NCBI RefSeq assembly: GCF_035917455.1
Contig: NZ_CP109078.1
Coordinates: 124,001 to 188,000 of the forward strand
Reading direction: 5' to 3'
Origin: Micromonospora sp. NBC_01796
Lineage (GTDB): Bacteria; Actinomycetota; Actinomycetes; Mycobacteriales; Micromonosporaceae
DNA: 64,000 nt
How positions within the stretch are numbered: the stretch's first letter is position 1; each line of letters begins with the position of its first letter. The position numbers and the translations under genes were made by a program. The notes under the pieces are model-generated. The model saw only the letters and a list, made by a program, of their open reading frames with translations. It was not told the origin of the DNA and did no database searches. Shown here piece after piece: positions 8,541 to 61,400 of the stretch.

Positions 8541-8990
8541 ATGATCCCGGGCGAGGTGCTTCCTGGTGCGGGCGACATAGAGATCAATGCCGGTCGACCG
8601 GTGCTGACCCTGCCGGTCAGCAACACCGGCGACCGGCCGGTGCAGGTCGGCTCGCACTACCACTTCGCCGAGGCGAATCCGGCGTTGGAGTTCGACCGAT
8701 CCGCCGCCTGGGGCCACCGACTCGCCGTACCCGCCGGCACCGCCATCCGCTTCGAACCCGGCATCACCCGCGACGTACCCCTGATCCCCCTAGCCGGCAC
8801 CCGCACAGTCCCCGGCCTCCGCTCCGCCTCCGCCGGCCCCCTCGACCCAGTCGACCAGCGCGCCGACCAGCGCGTTGATCATGAAGTTAGCGCAGATTTC
8901 AGGCCGAAAACCGTCGCTAACTTCATGATCAACGAGGCGAGCGAGGGCGAGCCGGGCAGCGGCGCGGGCGGCAGCGGGGGTGTGGTGTGA
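8541..8990 (+). CDS. ureB: Urease beta subunit with repeat-encoded C-terminal tail
   Basis: 149 aa from ATG 8541 (AAGGTGG upstream). The conserved core ([50 protein letters not shown]) ends near residue 100, where ordinary UreB stops. About 49 extra residues follow; residues 111-131 ([10 protein letters not shown] through ANFMIN) are encoded by a palindromic repeat that also occurs elsewhere in the window, and the end is Gly/Ser-rich. The stop overlaps ureC by GTGA. The core looks complete, so the subunit should still assemble with UreA and UreC; the tail is probably a tolerated insertion. Confidence 0.95.
8873..8934. repeat. Palindromic repeat GTTGATCATGAAGTTAG, copy 1 (inside ureB)
   Basis: Perfect inverted repeat with 20-base arms (8873-8892 and 8915-8934) around a 22-base loop. 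A second copy with the same arm sequence but a different loop lies at 61338-61400. Conserved arms with variable loops fit a mobile REP- or MITE-like palindrome. This copy lies inside the ureB reading frame and is translated without a stop. Confidence 0.85.
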
Positions 8991-55650: not shown

Positions 55651-56526
55651 ATGGGAATCACGGCGGACGAGAGCAGTCGTCTCGCAGCGTTGCTGAGTAA
55701 GCACGCAGAGCATCTGGTGACCCGGTGGACGGAGATCGCCGCCGCATCGCTGCGCGGCCGGATGACCGAGGCCGAGCTGCGCCAGGAGGTGCAGGAACTG
55801 CACCGCACCCTGACCACCACCCTGGGTTACGGCCAGTTCGACCTGACCGTTGAGAGTGCAGCCGGACTGCGGGCCACGCTCGCGGATCTGTCCCGCACCC
55901 GGGCCCGGCAGGGTTTCACCGCCACCGAGACCGCGGTCAGCGTGTTCGCGCTGAAGGACGCGCTGCTCGACGTGCTGGACGTACGCGCCGGTGACCGGGA
56001 GACGTTGACGGCGTTCGTCGCGGCGTCGACCGTGGTGGACCAACTCGGCCTGTTCACCTTCGAGCAGTACACGAAGTCGCGGGAACGGCTGATCGCCGAC
56101 CAGACCGAGCAACTGCTGGAGCTGTCCACCCCGGTGGTCAAGCTCTGGGACGGCGTGGTCGCGATTCCGCTGGTCGGGACGCTGGACTCGGCACGGGCGC
56201 AGGTTGTCATGGAACGGCTCCTGCAGACCCTGGTCGACACCGGTTCCCCGTACGCGATCATCGACATCACCGGGGTGCCGGCGGTCGACACCCAGGTCGC
56301 GCAGCACATCCTCAAGACCGTGGTCGCCGCCCGGCTGATGGGCGCGGAGTGCATCATCTCCGGCATCCGCCCGCAGATCGCGCAGACCATCGTGGCGCTC
56401 GGCATCGAGTTCGGCGACATCGCCACCAAGTCGACGCTCGCCGACGCGCTGCGGCACGCGCTCCGGATGATCGACGCGTCCCGGCGGGCGACCGGCGCGG
56501 TGGCCACCGGCCACCGGAGCGCCTGA
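55651..56526 (+). CDS. rsbR: Stressosome co-antagonist RsbR-like (N-terminal globin-fold plus STAS)
   Basis: 291 aa from ATG 55651, which follows GGGGAGGAAAC. The N-terminal ~150 residues form the RsbR-type sensor region (WTEIAAASLRGRMTEAE..), then the ELSTPVVKLWDGVVAIPLVGTLD linker and a STAS domain. The regulatory positions are kept by motif: the Thr of DITGVPAVDT and of GIRPQIAQT correspond to the two phosphorylated Thr of Bacillus RsbR. It builds the stressosome shell together with RsbS and holds RsbT. The stop shares one base with the rsbS ATG. It starts the six-gene signalling operon. Confidence 0.88.
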   Translation: MGITADESSRLAALLSKHAEHLVTRWTEIAAASLRGRMTEAELRQEVQELHRTLTTTLGYGQFDLTVESAAGLRATLADLSRTRARQGFTATETAVSVFALKDALLDVLDVRAGDRETLTAFVAASTVVDQLGLFTFEQYTKSRERLIADQTEQLLELSTPVVKLWDGVVAIPLVGTLDSARAQVVMERLLQTLVDTGSPYAIIDITGVPAVDTQVAQHILKTVVAARLMGAECIISGIRPQIAQTIVALGIEFGDIATKSTLADALRHALRMIDASRRATGAVATGHRSA

Positions 56527-56975
56527 TGGACCGGGTACCGGTCCTCAAGATCGGTGACCTGCTCCTGGTCTCGATCCAGGTCGACATGGAGGACCAGACG
56601 GCCCTCGCCCTCCAGGAGGACCTGGCCGACCGGATCGTTGCGACCGGCTGCCACGGGGTCATCATCGACATCACCGCGATGGACATCGTCGACTCGTTCG
56701 TCGGCCGGATGCTCTCCACCATCGCGGGCATCGCCCGGGTGCTCGACGCGGAGACCGTGGTGGTCGGCATGCGACCCGCGGTGGCGATCACCCTGGTCGA
56801 GCTGGGACTGTCGCTGGACGGCATCCGTACCGCGCTGAACGTGGAGCGGGGCATGGAACTGCTGGCCCGTTCCCGGGCCGACGAGGCGGCGTACGAGGTC
56901 GACCCGTACCCGGCGGACGTCTGGGCGCTACCGGGAGGCCCGGACCTCGACACACCGACACCGACCGCCCCGTGA
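56526..56975 (+). CDS. rsbS: Stressosome antagonist RsbS
   Basis: 149 aa, a single STAS domain plus a short Asp/Pro-rich tail. VPVLKIGDLLLVSIQVDMEDQ and TAMDIVDSFVGRML match RsbS, and the Ser in VDSF corresponds to the residue phosphorylated by RsbT. The ATG 56526 overlaps the rsbR stop (TGATG). RsbS sequesters RsbT until stress; phosphorylation at this Ser releases it. Confidence 0.92.
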   Translation: MDRVPVLKIGDLLLVSIQVDMEDQTALALQEDLADRIVATGCHGVIIDITAMDIVDSFVGRMLSTIAGIARVLDAETVVVGMRPAVAITLVELGLSLDGIRTALNVERGMELLARSRADEAAYEVDPYPADVWALPGGPDLDTPTPTAP

Positions 56976-57397
56976 CCGGCGGCTCCGATCCGGGCACCGC
57001 CCAGGTCGTGACGATCAGCTCGGACGGGGACGTGGTCCGGGTACGTCAACTCGTCCGCACCGCCGCCGTCACGGTCAAGCTGTCCCTGGTCGACCAGACG
57101 AAACTGGTAACCGCCGCGAGCGAACTCGGCCGGAACACCCTCGTGTACGGCGGCGGCGGGGCCGCCGAGGTCAGCTTCGTCGACAGCGGTCGACGCAGGG
57201 GCGTACGGGTCGTGTTCTCCGACGACGGCCCCGGCATCGCCGACCTGGACCTCGCTCTCACCGACGGTTACACCTCGGGCGGTGGGCTCGGGTTGGGGCT
57301 CAGCGGAGCCCGGCGCCTGGTCGACGAGTTCGAGATCGACACCGGGGCCGGTCGCGGCACCAGGGTGACCATCACCAAGTGGGCCCGGTCGACGTGA
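56972..57397 (+). CDS. rsbT: Stressosome switch kinase RsbT
   Basis: 141 aa from GTG 56972, overlapping the rsbS stop (GTGA). It is an HATPase-fold kinase: N-box VTAASELGRNTLVYGGGG, G1 FSDDGPGIADL and G2 GGLGLGLSGARRLVDEFEI. RsbT phosphorylates RsbS and RsbR, leaves the stressosome and activates its partner phosphatase; here that is presumably the receiver-PP2C protein at the end of the operon. The stop overlaps the next gene by GTGA. Confidence 0.92.
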   Translation: MTGGSDPGTAQVVTISSDGDVVRVRQLVRTAAVTVKLSLVDQTKLVTAASELGRNTLVYGGGGAAEVSFVDSGRRRGVRVVFSDDGPGIADLDLALTDGYTSGGGLGLGLSGARRLVDEFEIDTGAGRGTRVTITKWARST

Positions 57398-58407
57398 ACG
57401 GCGACGACCGGCTGACCGACGACGGGGTCTGGTTCCGGGTCGAGGAGCCGGGCACGATCGGTACGGTCCGGCGGGCCACCGAACAACTCGGCGTGCGGGT
57501 CGGCCTGGACAAGGGCCGGGTCGACGCGCTCGCGATCGTGGTGACCGAACTGGCCACCAACCTGGTCAAGCACGCCGACGACGGGCTGCTCCTGATCCGC
57601 CCGGCACGGGCCGAGAAGATCGCCGGGGTGGAACTCGTCGCGGTCGACTCCGGCCCCGGCATGGCCGACGTGGCGAAGTCGTCGCGGGACGGGCACTCGA
57701 CCGCCGGTTCGCTCGGCATCGGACTGGGCGCGATCCTGCGGCAGTCGACCTGGGTCGACGTGTTCTCGACGCCCGGCCGGGGCACGGTGACGGTCGCCCG
57801 GGTCTGGCCGGCGGAACAGCCCGAACCGATCTGGACCGCCGGGATCAGCCGCCCGATGACCGGCGAGCAGTCGTGCGGCGACGGGTACGCCGTACGGGTC
57901 GTCGACGGTCGGCGGCAGGTGCTGGTCTGCGACGGGCTCGGCCACGGGCCGCTGGCGGCGATGGCGGCGCAGGCCGCCGTACACGCCTTCCACTCCGCCC
58001 CGGTGGGGCCACCGTCGGCGGTCCTGGAGTACCTGCACCGGTCGATCTCCCACACCCGTGGTGCCGCCGCCGCGGTCGCCGAACTCGTCCCGGACGCCAA
58101 CCTGGTCCGGTACGCCGGGCTCGGCAACATCGCCGGGTTCGTGGCGGACGGCGATGAGCGACGCGGACTGGTGTCCCTGCCCGGAATCGTCGGCCACCAG
58201 CGCCGGACGTTACGCGACTTCGAGTATCCGTTGCCGGACGACGCGAACCTGGTCATGCACAGCGACGGGGTGACCGACCGGTGGCGGCTGACGGACTATC
58301 CGGGGCTGCAACGCCGCTCCCCGCAGGTGATCGCCGCGACACTGCTGCGGGACGCGGGCGTACGCCGGGACGATGCCTGCGTACTCGTCGCCCGGACCCG
58401 ACCATGA
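57394..58407 (+). CDS. HATPase-SpoIIE phosphatase fusion (RsbX-like feedback phosphatase)
   Basis: 337 aa from GTG 57394, chosen because it overlaps the rsbT stop as GTGA, as elsewhere in this operon; a GTG five codons earlier is possible. The N-terminal HATPase domain has N-box VTELATNLVKHADDG, VDSGPGMADV and GSLGIGLGAIL. The C-terminal SpoIIE/PP2C domain keeps metal ligands in VLVCDGLGHGPLA and LVMHSDGVTDRW. RsbX-type phosphatases dephosphorylate RsbR and RsbS and reset the stressosome. The fused kinase-fold domain suggests an RsbT-like sensing role in the same protein. Confidence 0.87.
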   Translation: MNGDDRLTDDGVWFRVEEPGTIGTVRRATEQLGVRVGLDKGRVDALAIVVTELATNLVKHADDGLLLIRPARAEKIAGVELVAVDSGPGMADVAKSSRDGHSTAGSLGIGLGAILRQSTWVDVFSTPGRGTVTVARVWPAEQPEPIWTAGISRPMTGEQSCGDGYAVRVVDGRRQVLVCDGLGHGPLAAMAAQAAVHAFHSAPVGPPSAVLEYLHRSISHTRGAAAAVAELVPDANLVRYAGLGNIAGFVADGDERRGLVSLPGIVGHQRRTLRDFEYPLPDDANLVMHSDGVTDRWRLTDYPGLQRRSPQVIAATLLRDAGVRRDDACVLVARTRP

Positions 58408-59765
58408 CCGACACCGGCACACCGCTGCTGCGGATGGCGCTGCGTACCGAGTCGGACGTGTTCGTGGTGCGTCAACGCGGCCGGGAGGTGGCCGCCGCCG
58501 TCGGTTTCGAGCACCAGGACCAGGTACGGCTGGCCACCGCGCTGAGCGAGATCGGCCGCTATCTGCTGGGCGCCGTCCGTACGCCGACCCGCAGCGAGGT
58601 GGTGTTCTCGGTCGAGGTCGACGCGGAGGCGGTACTGGTCATCGAGGTCACCACCGGCGTGACGGCCGGTACGTCCCAGCGGGAACTGTCGCAGGCGCTG
58701 GCCGTGGCCCGGCTCGTCGACACGTTCGCGGTACGGCAGGACGGGACGACGGCGGTCATCCGGATGTCCCGGCGCATCCCCGCGTCGGCCGGTCCGCTCA
58801 CTCCCGCCCGACTGGCGGTGGTACGCGACAAGCTCGGCACCTCGGTCGCCCGTACGCCGCTGGACGAGATGGCCGAGCAGAACGAGCAGTTGCTCGCGGC
58901 CCTGGAGCAGGCGCGGGCCCAGCGCGACGAACTCGCCCGGCTCAACGACGAGCTCAGCGAGACCAACCAGGGGGTGTTGGCGCTCTACACCCAGCTCTCC
59001 GAGGAACTCGACGAGACGAACCGGGGCGTGGTCGCCCTGCACGCCGAGTTGGAGGACCGCTCGGTGCGGTTGCGGGCGGCGAGCGAGGCAAAAACCCGGT
59101 TCCTGGCCAACGCCAGTCACGAGTTGCGGGCGCCGGTGACCGCGGTGATCGGGCTGTCCCGGCTGCTGGTCGACCCGTCCTCGGATCCGCTCACCGGCGA
59201 GCAGCAGCAACAGATAGAGCTGATCCGTGGTTCGGCGGTCGACCTGTTGGCGCTGGTCAACGACCTGCTCGACCTGGCCAAGGCGGAGTCCGGCACGATC
59301 GAGCCGACCTGGTCCGACATCGAACTCCGGGCCGTTTTCGGCCAGTTGCGCGGTACGGCACGCGCGCTCGCCACCCGGCCCGAGGTCGAGTTGGTGGTGG
59401 TCGAGCCCGACCCGTCGGCCGTGATCCGCTCGGACGAGGTCCTGCTGACCCATGTGCTGCGTAACCTGCTGCACAACGGGCTCAAGTTCACCGAACGGGG
59501 GGAGGTGCGGATGACCGCCGAGAACGACGGGCAGACCTGGGCGCTGCGGGTCAGCGACACCGGCATCGGCATCGCACCCGAACTTCAGGAACGGATCTTC
59601 GAGGAGTTCTACCAGGTGCCGGGCCGGTCGCCGGGCGGCACCGGGCTCGGGCTCCCCTACGCCCGCCGGCTGGCCACCCTGCTCGGCGGCACCCTCGACG
59701 TCGAGAGGACCCCCGGCGCGGGCAGCGCCTTCACCGTCCGTCTACCCGTACGACCGATGCCATGA
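58404..59765 (+). CDS. Hybrid sensor kinase: HATPase-like domain, coiled coil, HisKA and HATPase
   Basis: 453 aa from ATG 58404, overlapping the previous stop (ATGA). An N-terminal RsbT/RsbW-like HATPase domain (about 1-135) is followed by a long coiled coil (EQNEQLLAALEQARAQRDEL, then EELDETNRGVVALHAELEDR), a HisKA domain with the phospho-His in FLANASHELRAPVTAVIG and a catalytic HATPase domain (LLTHVLRNLLHNGLKFTE, DTGIGIAPEL, GGTGLGL). There is no transmembrane helix, so it is cytoplasmic. It likely phosphorylates the receiver domain of the next protein and may be set by the stressosome. Confidence 0.9.
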   Translation: MTDTGTPLLRMALRTESDVFVVRQRGREVAAAVGFEHQDQVRLATALSEIGRYLLGAVRTPTRSEVVFSVEVDAEAVLVIEVTTGVTAGTSQRELSQALAVARLVDTFAVRQDGTTAVIRMSRRIPASAGPLTPARLAVVRDKLGTSVARTPLDEMAEQNEQLLAALEQARAQRDELARLNDELSETNQGVLALYTQLSEELDETNRGVVALHAELEDRSVRLRAASEAKTRFLANASHELRAPVTAVIGLSRLLVDPSSDPLTGEQQQQIELIRGSAVDLLALVNDLLDLAKAESGTIEPTWSDIELRAVFGQLRGTARALATRPEVELVVVEPDPSAVIRSDEVLLTHVLRNLLHNGLKFTERGEVRMTAENDGQTWALRVSDTGIGIAPELQERIFEEFYQVPGRSPGGTGLGLPYARRLATLLGGTLDVERTPGAGSAFTVRLPVRPMP

Positions 59766-61321
59766 CCGCGCCGGACCAGAGGGCATCCGACGCCACGATC
59801 CTGGTCGTCGACGACCGGGCCGCGAAGCGTTACCTGCTGGTGAGCTGGCTGACCCGGGCCGGGTTCACGGTGATCCAGGCCGACAGCGGCGCGGCGGCGC
59901 TGGCCCGGATGGAGCACGAGGACGTCGACCTGATCGTGCTCGACGTGCGGCTCGGCGACATGACCGGGTTCGAGGTCAGTGAACGGATCAAGGCCGATCC
60001 GCGTTGGGCGTCCCGGCCGGTGATCCACGTGTCCGCGCACGCGGTCGACGTCGGGGACCGGATCCAGGGCCTCACCCGGGGCGCGGACGCGTACCTGGTG
60101 GAGCCGATCGAGCCGGACGAGCTGATCGCCACCACCCACGCCGCGCTGCGGTACTACCGGGCCCGGCGCCGGGCCGAGCTGCTCGCCGCCCGCCTCGCCC
60201 GGCTCGCCGAGACCACGCTCGCGGTCAACTCCGCCCCCACCCTGGTCCAGCTCCTCACCGCAGCCGTGGCCGGGGCCGCGCAGATCTTCGGTACGGGCGC
60301 GGTTGTCGCCGCGCAGAACACCGACGGCGAACGGCTGATCGCCACCACCACCGAGCCCGGCACCCCGGTGACGATCCAGTCGTGGCCGGTCGACCCGAGT
60401 CCGGTTCCGGTCGGCGTCGCCCTGCGCACCGAACCGCCCACCGCGTGGCCGTTGCTCACCGGGGCGGAGGAGCGGATCGCGGTGGCCACCGCGCGACTGC
60501 GCGACGACCGGCCGGGAGTGCAGATCGCCGTACCGGACTCGGCCCTGGCCGCCGAGTCCATCGTGCTCAGTCAGCTCGTGCAGGCGCTCGCCGCGGCGGT
60601 CGAGGCGCAGCGCTCGTACGACCAGGAGCACCGGATCGCGGTGACGCTGCAACGCAGCCTGCTGCCCCGTACGCTGCCCCGGATCGAGGGCCTGGATCTC
60701 GCGGTCCGCTACGAGCCGGCGAGCGCGCAGACCGAGGTCGGTGGCGACTTCTACGAACTCGCGATGATCGACGGCAGGCTCCTGGTGGCGATCGGCGACG
60801 TGGCGGGCCACTCACTGCACGCGGCGACCGTGATGGCCGAACTCCGGCACGCCATCCGGGCGTACGCGGTGGAGGGGCATCCGCCGGGCGCCATCGTCGC
60901 GCGGGTCGACAAACTCGTGCGTACGCTCCTGCCGGGCGAGTTCGCCACGCTCTGCGTGCTGACCCTCGAACCCGACACGGGCAGAATCCGGCTCGCCAGC
61001 GCCGGCCACCTGCCGGCTCTGCTGGTCACCGAAGGCGGCGCCACCACCTTCGTCGAGCACACGGCGACCCTGCTCGGCGTACGCGCGAACCGCCCCGACG
61101 ACCTGGAACTCGTCCTCCCACCCGGCGCGACCCTGGTCCTCTACACCGACGGCCTGATCGAACGCCGCGACATCGACATCGACCTCCGGATGCTGGCCCT
61201 CGCCGCCACCGCCGCCCCGGTCGACGCCAACCTCGACCACTTCTGCGGCCGCCTCCTCACCAACCTCGCCCCCCCAGAAATAACCGACGACATAGCCGTA
61301 GTAGCCCTCCGCCGCCACTGA
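59762..61321 (+). CDS. Receiver-GAF-PP2C (SpoIIE-type) phosphatase
   Basis: 519 aa from ATG 59762, overlapping the kinase stop (ATGA). Receiver domain: phospho-Asp in LIVLDVRLGDMTGF (about residue 62), Ser in IHVSAHA. A GAF domain (about 150-280) follows, then a PP2C-type phosphatase with the metal-binding motifs VGGDFYELAMIDGRLLVAIG, DVAGHSLHAATVMAELR and LYTDGLIERRD. It fills the role of RsbU: activated by phosphorylation or by RsbT, it would dephosphorylate an anti-anti-sigma factor and free a stress sigma factor. The target is not encoded in the window. It is the last gene of the operon. Confidence 0.92.
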   Translation: MTAPDQRASDATILVVDDRAAKRYLLVSWLTRAGFTVIQADSGAAALARMEHEDVDLIVLDVRLGDMTGFEVSERIKADPRWASRPVIHVSAHAVDVGDRIQGLTRGADAYLVEPIEPDELIATTHAALRYYRARRRAELLAARLARLAETTLAVNSAPTLVQLLTAAVAGAAQIFGTGAVVAAQNTDGERLIATTTEPGTPVTIQSWPVDPSPVPVGVALRTEPPTAWPLLTGAEERIAVATARLRDDRPGVQIAVPDSALAAESIVLSQLVQALAAAVEAQRSYDQEHRIAVTLQRSLLPRTLPRIEGLDLAVRYEPASAQTEVGGDFYELAMIDGRLLVAIGDVAGHSLHAATVMAELRHAIRAYAVEGHPPGAIVARVDKLVRTLLPGEFATLCVLTLEPDTGRIRLASAGHLPALLVTEGGATTFVEHTATLLGVRANRPDDLELVLPPGATLVLYTDGLIERRDIDIDLRMLALAATAAPVDANLDHFCGRLLTNLAPPEITDDIAVVALRRH

Positions 61322-61337
61322 CCCTCCCGGATCACGC

Positions 61338-61400
61338 CGTTGATCATGAAGTTAGGTACGCGATCAGGGCCTCGGCGGCGCGCTAACTTCATGATCGACG
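61338..61400. repeat. Palindromic repeat GTTGATCATGAAGTTAG, copy 2
   Basis: Arms CGTTGATCATGAAGTTAG (61338-61355) and its complement at 61383-61400, with one mismatch and a 27-base loop that differs from copy 1 at 8873-8934. It lies between convergent genes and its right arm supplies the TGA stop of the 460-aa membrane protein. It may also end transcription. Confidence 0.82.

Follow-up and report, generated by a model that had tools for sequence, protein, structure and literature searches.

A TNRG coiled coil in the output kinase of a Micromonospora stressosome operon is a candidate site of stressosome output

A stretch of 64,000 nucleotides of the genome of Micromonospora sp. NBC_01796 (contig NZ_CP109078.1, here called the window, with positions counted from its first base) contains a stressosome operon of six genes on the + strand (55651–61321), in the order rsbR, rsbS, rsbT, a GHKL/SpoIIE gene, a histidine kinase gene and a receiver/PP2C gene. 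By its predicted gene layout this operon is real. Ahead of its catalytic core the kinase has a degenerate relative of RsbT and a coiled coil with a nearly invariant repeat, referred to here as TNRG. Nearly all TNRG helices found lie next to a stressosome of this type, and the helix may therefore be the site at which the signal is handed over. Based on sequence comparisons, we give about even chances to the proposal that the signal enters the output protein through the TNRG coiled coil, not through RsbU_N, and that the kinase then controls the receiver-phosphatase.

The output kinase (453 amino acid residues; 58404–59765, +, ATG start in a 4-bp overlap) ends in a HisKA domain (residues 229–297, with His239) and a HATPase_c domain (residues 344–450), together at 59088–59753 (+). 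The catalytic boxes are intact, with His239, Asn358, Asp385, Gly387, Gly412 and Gly414 (H, N, G1 and G2 boxes) present in 35/35 family sequences. Behind the N-terminal domain lies the near-invariant coil motif ELEETNRGVVALYAELDE. In the AlphaFold2 model, residues 152–239 form a single helix containing both 18-residue TNRG repeats, ELSETNQGVLALYTQLSE (repeat 1, residues 183–200; 58950–59003, +) and ELDETNRGVVALHAELED (repeat 2, residues 201–218; 59004–59057, +). Thr205, Asn206 and Gly208 are invariant in two overlapping alignments (36/36 and 32/32 rows, the latter with both Actinomycetota and Pseudomonadota), and position 187 is Thr in all 34 rows of the 36-row alignment that have repeat 1. In the divergent loci L068 and L069 the Asn of TNRG is Ser. 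The hydrophobic spacing, read by hand as 3-4-3-4-4, would place the Thr in the core of the coil. Most Actinomycetota kinases have two copies of the repeat and the Pseudomonadota kinases have one.

Relatives of the window kinase have little except the coil ahead of the kinase core. Pfam shows no other recognised sensor domain in the window kinase (E ≤ 0.1), and none was found by Pfam in eight named TNRG kinases of the Comamonadaceae and Lysobacteraceae or in the 279-residue TNRG kinase of locus L108, from an unplaced gammaproteobacterium. The PDB sequences matched by profile A1, all weakly, were helical proteins and segments of sensor kinases. The TNRG motif strings were absent from the literature text searched; parts of the present findings may stand in earlier stressosome reviews. 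Those older reviews aside, no earlier description was found in the literature searched of a kinase with the architecture predicted here, a degenerate RsbT domain followed by a TNRG coil.

A TNRG profile (A4; 40 positions, cut-off E ≤ 1e-4) matched 8 of 198 Actinomycetota genomes, that of the window included, and 13 of 299 Pseudomonadota genomes. All 21 positive genomes have RsbS, each reported match lying 1.8–2.6 kb downstream of it on the same strand (start to start), and no match away from RsbS was reported in the 497 genomes. The 13 positive Pseudomonadota genomes have the 13 best RsbS scores among the 28 with a STAS match at E ≤ 1e-15; the remaining 15 gave no TNRG match. One of 149 Spirochaetota genomes (G697) was also positive, and encodes a hybrid kinase in which a complete RsbT domain directly precedes a TNRG-like coil. 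The two Spirochaetota genomes with RsbS (G349 and G707) had no TNRG match, both loci being near contig ends: in G349 (locus L145) the contig extends about 1.3 kb beyond RsbS, and RsbS of G707 is less than 500 bases from the end.

The gene that follows rsbT (57394–58407, +, GTG start in a 4-bp overlap) encodes an RsbX-like phosphatase with a GHKL domain (residues 18–133) and a SpoIIE/PP2C domain (residues 171–335). The N-box and G1 of the GHKL domain and the metal-site Asp residues of the PP2C domain are intact; Asp163 and Asp180 are present in 35/35 family sequences and Asp291, Asp326 and Asp327 in 34/35, with one gap. The additional HATPase domain of this phosphatase, which had seemed unusual in the preliminary description, proved to be common, as it is carried by 134 of the 146 loci with at least 5 kb of sequence downstream of rsbS. 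These 146 loci (6 of 152 were dropped) are not independent, as some species occur twice (L047 and L099 are the same contig) and ancestry is shared. TNRG occurs with the GHKL domain of this phosphatase (X-type GHKL) in 131 of them, neither is found in 12, X-type GHKL occurs without TNRG in 3 and TNRG without X-type GHKL in 0. If L199 and L201 are counted as fusions (GHKL-PP2C, with a GHKL part scoring best as RsbT) the table becomes 131, 10, 5 and 0. At these two loci the sole GHKL domain found behind RsbS is the one fused to an RsbX-type PP2C domain, and a separate RsbT was not found.

RsbU_N (PF08673) was not found in the window proteins (E ≤ 0.1), in any of 32 TNRG kinases (E ≤ 0.01) or in any of the 3 TNRG-PP2C proteins scanned. 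Of 15 loci that lack TNRG, 6 (L173–L176, L178 and L195) have it in their outputs, in a scan that covered one or two downstream open reading frames (ORFs) each and left out L127 and early-ending contigs. In the RsbS tree (76 rows) the 59 TNRG loci group with L127, L194 and L145 (contig cut), where TNRG was undetected; support is modest (84/82), and the tree is not read further because long branches warn against it.

Residues 1–130 of the kinase had no Pfam match at E ≤ 0.1. By contrast, a family profile of this N-terminal domain matched RsbT with an hhalign probability of 96.7% (E 3.9e-10), far more strongly than it matched the GHKL domain of the RsbX-like phosphatase (probability 5%, E 0.0076). 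The AlphaFold2 model of residues 1–240, built from 36 sequences, has a mean predicted local distance difference test score of 93.8. In VIA-align comparisons the modelled domain gave Z 15.2 with RsbW (root-mean-square deviation 1.7 over 108 residues), 14.0 with SpoIIAB and about 8 with histidine-kinase ATPase domains. According to the model, the N-terminal domain has the GHKL fold of the RsbW/SpoIIAB/RsbT kind; the comparison rests on RsbW and SpoIIAB because a sequence search of solved structures with the RsbT of the window gave no match at E ≤ 0.001. The additional N-terminal HATPase previously assigned to the kinase therefore holds as a fold, by profile and model, though the domain escapes Pfam and is a degenerate homologue of RsbT.

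In this degenerate domain (kinase residues 6–126; 58419–58781, +) the N-box Asn is replaced and the G1 and G2 boxes are lost. The N-box Asn is found in 0/35 family rows and in 2/36 rows of a wider alignment (L142 and L150, both Pseudomonadota). Because these elements are lost the domain is not classed as a switch kinase, and the idea that it is a second catalytic unit of the kinase was rejected since its ATP site is gone. Arg23 is kept in 36/36 rows and Arg27 in 33/36, and the two align with R19 and R23 of what we take to be the Bacillus subtilis RsbT sequence. In Listeria, the RsbT substitution N49A leaves RsbR1 unphosphorylated (PMC7705745).

Full ATP-site boxes are present in fused domains in the same place before the coil in L142, L187, L188, L190, L191 and L193 (Pseudomonadota). 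In a quick tree of 86 GHKL domains, free RsbT, X domains and fused domains form three separate groups, of which those other than X have modest support; 25 of the 26 fused domains cluster together, while L181, on a very long branch, falls among RsbT. Given the complete fused versions and this grouping, the N-terminal domain of the window kinase is most likely derived from a fused RsbT that was formerly complete. A different fusion occurs at L194 (3383–4618), where an RsbT-like domain with its boxes kept is joined to a HisKA_2 kinase that lacks the TNRG coil.

The last gene (59762–61321, +, ATG start in a 4-bp overlap) encodes a protein with a receiver (residues 13–124) and a SpoIIE/PP2C domain (residues 337–519). 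The acid pocket and phospho-Asp of the receiver, Asp17, Asp18 and Asp61, are present in 33/33 family sequences. The preliminary description had a GAF domain between receiver and PP2C; these two domains were recovered, whereas the middle region has no Pfam match at E ≤ 0.1, GAF included, and in its homologue, the L047 phosphatase, this region gives a GAF_3 match below threshold. Canonical receivers have a conserved Lys after beta strand 5. Here Glu114 (60101–60103) stands in its place, and Glu is found in 33/33 family rows. Over all loci read, with TNRG or without, this site is E in 43, D in 12 and Q in 1 of the other receiver-PP2C proteins (2 unparsed), and H in 18, A in 2 and Q in 2 of the receiver-kinases (4 unparsed). 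The site was read by pattern; the unparsed receivers, 2 actinobacterial and 4 proteobacterial, have D and H by eye.

A kinase core and a receiver are present together in 122 of the 131 TNRG loci, neither is present in 8, and a kinase for which no receiver was found in 1 (L069). In all 8 the coil leads into PP2C, a full kinase core is missing and no receiver was found; they represent about four independent cases (L047 = L099; L048 and L171; L170, L172 and L181; L109). As they are jointly absent, kinase core and receiver look like one inserted step, and this joint absence is the best evidence, though indirect, that the two may communicate. It also gives indirect support, together with the conserved gene order, to the earlier suggestion that the stressosome feeds the kinase and receiver-phosphatase. 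At L109 (Sphaerisporangium) the coil, together with part of HisKA, continues into PP2C, a receiver was not found, and the X gene is split between two frames.

The gene order is conserved in the Micromonosporaceae, the family of the window genome, where RsbS matched at E ≤ 1e-15 in 80/150 genomes. Forty RsbS loci were fetched from listed places as a same-family set, and 34 of these have the full order rsbR-rsbS-rsbT-GHKL/PP2C-kinase-receiver/PP2C, more than chance would give. Three of the 34 have genes broken across reading frames (L033 in X, L056 in RsbR and in the receiver gene, L060 in the receiver gene), and in six the kinase has an extra C-terminal receiver (L040, L049, L061, L064, L065 and L070). 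The six exceptions are L047 and L048, with the coil on PP2C, and L050, L063, L068 and L069, of another type in which the kinase is present and a receiver-PP2C was not found. These last four represent a second, divergent stressosome type, with RsbS 38–43% identical to that of the window, and their kinases have TNRG-like coils and, in three of the four, receivers. A scan of a species-genome collection gave at least 588 RsbS relatives, and among the best 80 the same design occurs in Actinomadura, Streptosporangiaceae, Pseudonocardiaceae, Streptomyces, Frankiaceae and Nocardioides, and a shorter design in Comamonadaceae, Stenotrophomonas and Xanthomonas.

In the window, rsbR (55651–56526, +; RsbRD_N residues 11–109, STAS residues 163–266), rsbS (56526–56975, +) and rsbT (56972–57397, +; GTG start in a 4-bp overlap) are adjacent and encode STAS, STAS and GHKL domains, respectively, the composition of a stressosome core. 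RsbS and RsbR matched solved stressosome chains (E 3.2e-33 and 1.6e-33, respectively), and RsbT, a GHKL switch kinase, has its N-box Asn55 and GLGLGL box intact. The Listeria phosphosites used for comparison are S56 of RsbS and T209 and T175 of RsbR (PMC7705745). In the alignment Ser57 of RsbS corresponds to S56 and Thr214 of RsbR to T209, which agrees with the phosphosites read earlier from motifs; the position of T175 departs from it, being occupied by Ser180, and is Ser in 38 of the 41 RsbR sequences of the family set (3 not parsed). An IAQT threonine of RsbR, considered as second phosphosite, was dropped, since counting positions in the Listeria alignment gives Ser180.

All five junctions of the six ORFs overlap, as read from the sequence: the ATG of rsbS overlaps the rsbR stop by 1 bp, and at each of the other four junctions the start lies over the preceding stop by 4 bp, which bears out the gapless arrangement first described. 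The Pfam domains in gene order are RsbRD_N and STAS; STAS; HATPase; HATPase_c_2 and SpoIIE; HisKA and HATPase_c; REC and SpoIIE, so that RsbR, RsbS, RsbT and the HATPase-SpoIIE fusion named in the preliminary description were all recovered. RsbS is single-copy in the source genome, the second match (31%) being the STAS domain of RsbR. Upstream are divergent genes for an ATP-binding cassette transporter and downstream is a convergent ORF without a Pfam match; a scan of three flanking genes detected no sigma-factor domain. Directly behind the operon is an inverted repeat (61340–61398, strand not assigned), a possible terminator and one copy of a dispersed hairpin family. The family has fixed arms, TTGATCATGAAGTTAG and CTAACTTCATGATC, and a variable middle of 26–27 bases, with window copies at 61340–61398 and 8875–8932. 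Genome-wide its pattern gave 39 forward and 41 reverse matches, mostly the same places on both strands, and the reversed-pattern control gave 0.

In B. subtilis, RsbT is reported to switch on RsbU when it orders the linker of that protein into a coiled coil, and the interface includes R19, R23 and N24 (PMC12143880). As RsbT orders this linker, and as two Arg residues are kept in the fused domain, a partner of the RsbT type is proposed for the TNRG coil. We infer the binding, phosphotransfer and target steps of the following route. RsbR and RsbS would form a sensing shell that holds RsbT; under stress, RsbT would phosphorylate Ser57 of RsbS and also RsbR, and would then be freed, and the GHKL-PP2C protein would reset the shell in the manner of RsbX. 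The TNRG coil, predicted to be continuous with the dimerisation and histidine phosphotransfer helix of the kinase, may then be acted on by the released RsbT or by the GHKL domain of the RsbX-like phosphatase, which would change kinase activity in parallel to the ordering of the RsbU linker by RsbT. The most likely role of the degenerate RsbT domain would be structural or in docking, either tethering the kinase to the stressosome or fixing the coil in one state. The kinase would phosphorylate (or dephosphorylate) Asp61 of the receiver-PP2C protein, and this phosphatase would act on an anti-anti-sigma (STAS) protein encoded elsewhere. Put more generally, and held tentatively at somewhat below even chances, the TNRG coil may be a second stressosome output adaptor beside RsbU_N, found with stressosomes that have a GHKL-RsbX fusion in at least two phyla, switched by a GHKL protein that binds it or phosphorylates the invariant Thr, and carrying either a kinase or a PP2C effector; in Actinomycetota a pseudo-RsbT in cis would set the resting state.

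Several observations weigh against the coil as point of entry. For many genomes, the larger ones, the first-look candidates were scored in part (e.g. 37/58 in Actinomycetota and 25/49 in Pseudomonadota), and the TNRG profile was trained on stressosome-linked rows, such that weaker relatives elsewhere could be missed. Seven of the eight positive Actinomycetota genomes belong to one genus, so these counts represent few events. No RsbS match was found in the G697 assembly, whose contig ends 92 bases upstream of the kinase ORF. GHKL-RsbX fusions without detected TNRG occur in L127, L194 and L197, L199 and L201 have a GHKL-PP2C fusion of RsbT-type score without TNRG, and the fused RsbT domain of L194 precedes a HisKA_2 kinase without TNRG. 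RsbU_N is also absent from 9 of the 15 scanned loci without TNRG, where the neighbours are PP2C, kinase, EAL/GGDEF or unrelated proteins. As the usual Lys is missing from every parsed receiver, phosphorylation or activation of these receivers may be unusual. The TNRG coil could also be a dimerisation helix alone.

That last point leads to a rival reading, which we regard as rather doubtful, in which the TNRG helix, like other signalling helices, does no more than keep the kinase dimeric and the degenerate RsbT domain takes the signal, by docking on unphosphorylated RsbS in competition with RsbT. The fused domain does keep an RsbT-like helix, with Arg23 in 36/36 and Arg27 in 33/36 rows though the ATP site is lost, and on the alignment above these are the counterparts of residues reported to bind RsbU (PMC12143880). 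However, the fused RsbT domain was not seen in 21 TNRG-kinase architectures (20 from Pseudomonadota), the TNRG letters are in our judgement kept across phyla more strictly than dimerisation requires, and the profile gave no matches away from RsbS in the 497 genomes. It is unlikely, in our estimate, that the partner of the coil is the GHKL domain of the RsbX-like protein instead of RsbT, perhaps as a Ser/Thr kinase of Thr205 whose action is reversed by its own PP2C domain. Its presence in 131/131 TNRG loci (split from PP2C in L109), with no TNRG found without it, agrees with such a partner, as do the invariance of Thr205 and the Thr at position 187 in 34/34 repeat-1 rows, and in Vibrio a downstream kinase has been proposed to be phosphorylated in an RsbT-dependent manner (PMC9237108). 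Yet the domain that is fused to the coil is RsbT-type, not X-type, three to five loci have the GHKL-PP2C fusion but lack TNRG, and because the loci share ancestry in the RsbS tree the association may be inherited. Ordinary co-transcription, in which the two-component pair senses a signal of its own and is merely co-regulated with the stressosome, fits the intact catalytic boxes of the kinase; it appears improbable given that the window kinase has no other recognised sensor domain, that its relatives are mostly coil and kinase core, and that the order is kept across Actinomycetota with a related order in Pseudomonadota.

Two-component outputs at stressosome loci are already described (PMC9237108, PMC10014275), such that the possibility of a new output arrangement, raised in the preliminary description, does not hold in general. 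The closest likeness is to the Vibrio vulnificus rsbRSTX locus with VvD1-VvD2, where RsbR, RsbS, RsbT and RsbX are followed by a kinase and receiver as presumed output (PMC9237108, PMC10014275). By its published description that system has a single-domain RsbX and a presumed cyclic di-GMP output, whereas here RsbX bears a GHKL domain and the output is a receiver-PP2C protein; the window kinase further has a degenerate RsbT domain and TNRG repeats. Like the B. subtilis RsbT-RsbU pair, the operon has an RsbT homologue, a PP2C output and a coiled-coil linker as proposed control point (PMC12143880); unlike it, the window has no RsbU_N, with the TNRG coil in its place, and an inserted kinase-receiver step. 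In the RsfS-RsfR system of Mycobacterium smegmatis a histidine kinase and a receiver-PP2C protein likewise act towards an anti-anti-sigma factor, which they set, and phosphorylation lowers the phosphatase activity; RsfS senses through a CHASE3 domain at its N terminus, and stressosome genes are not named in the abstract as part of the system (PMC10950880). The Moorella stressosome with an RsbU_N-GGDEF output (cited in PMC12143880) is a further example of the module joined to a different effector, there with RsbU_N as adaptor, unlike the window.

According to Heinz et al., most outputs beside the stressosomes they analysed do not have RsbU_N, and how these receive the signal is there merely suggested (PMC9237108). 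For one large class of such outputs, the TNRG motif provides a named 18-residue candidate site with single mutable residues, in both kinases and phosphatases. The fused RsbT domain adds a series, from intact to degenerate, in front of the presumed target coil, and this series suggests that a domain of the RsbT type pairs physically with the TNRG coil. If this is true, stressosome signalling into two-component relays would be testable with two small purified pieces.

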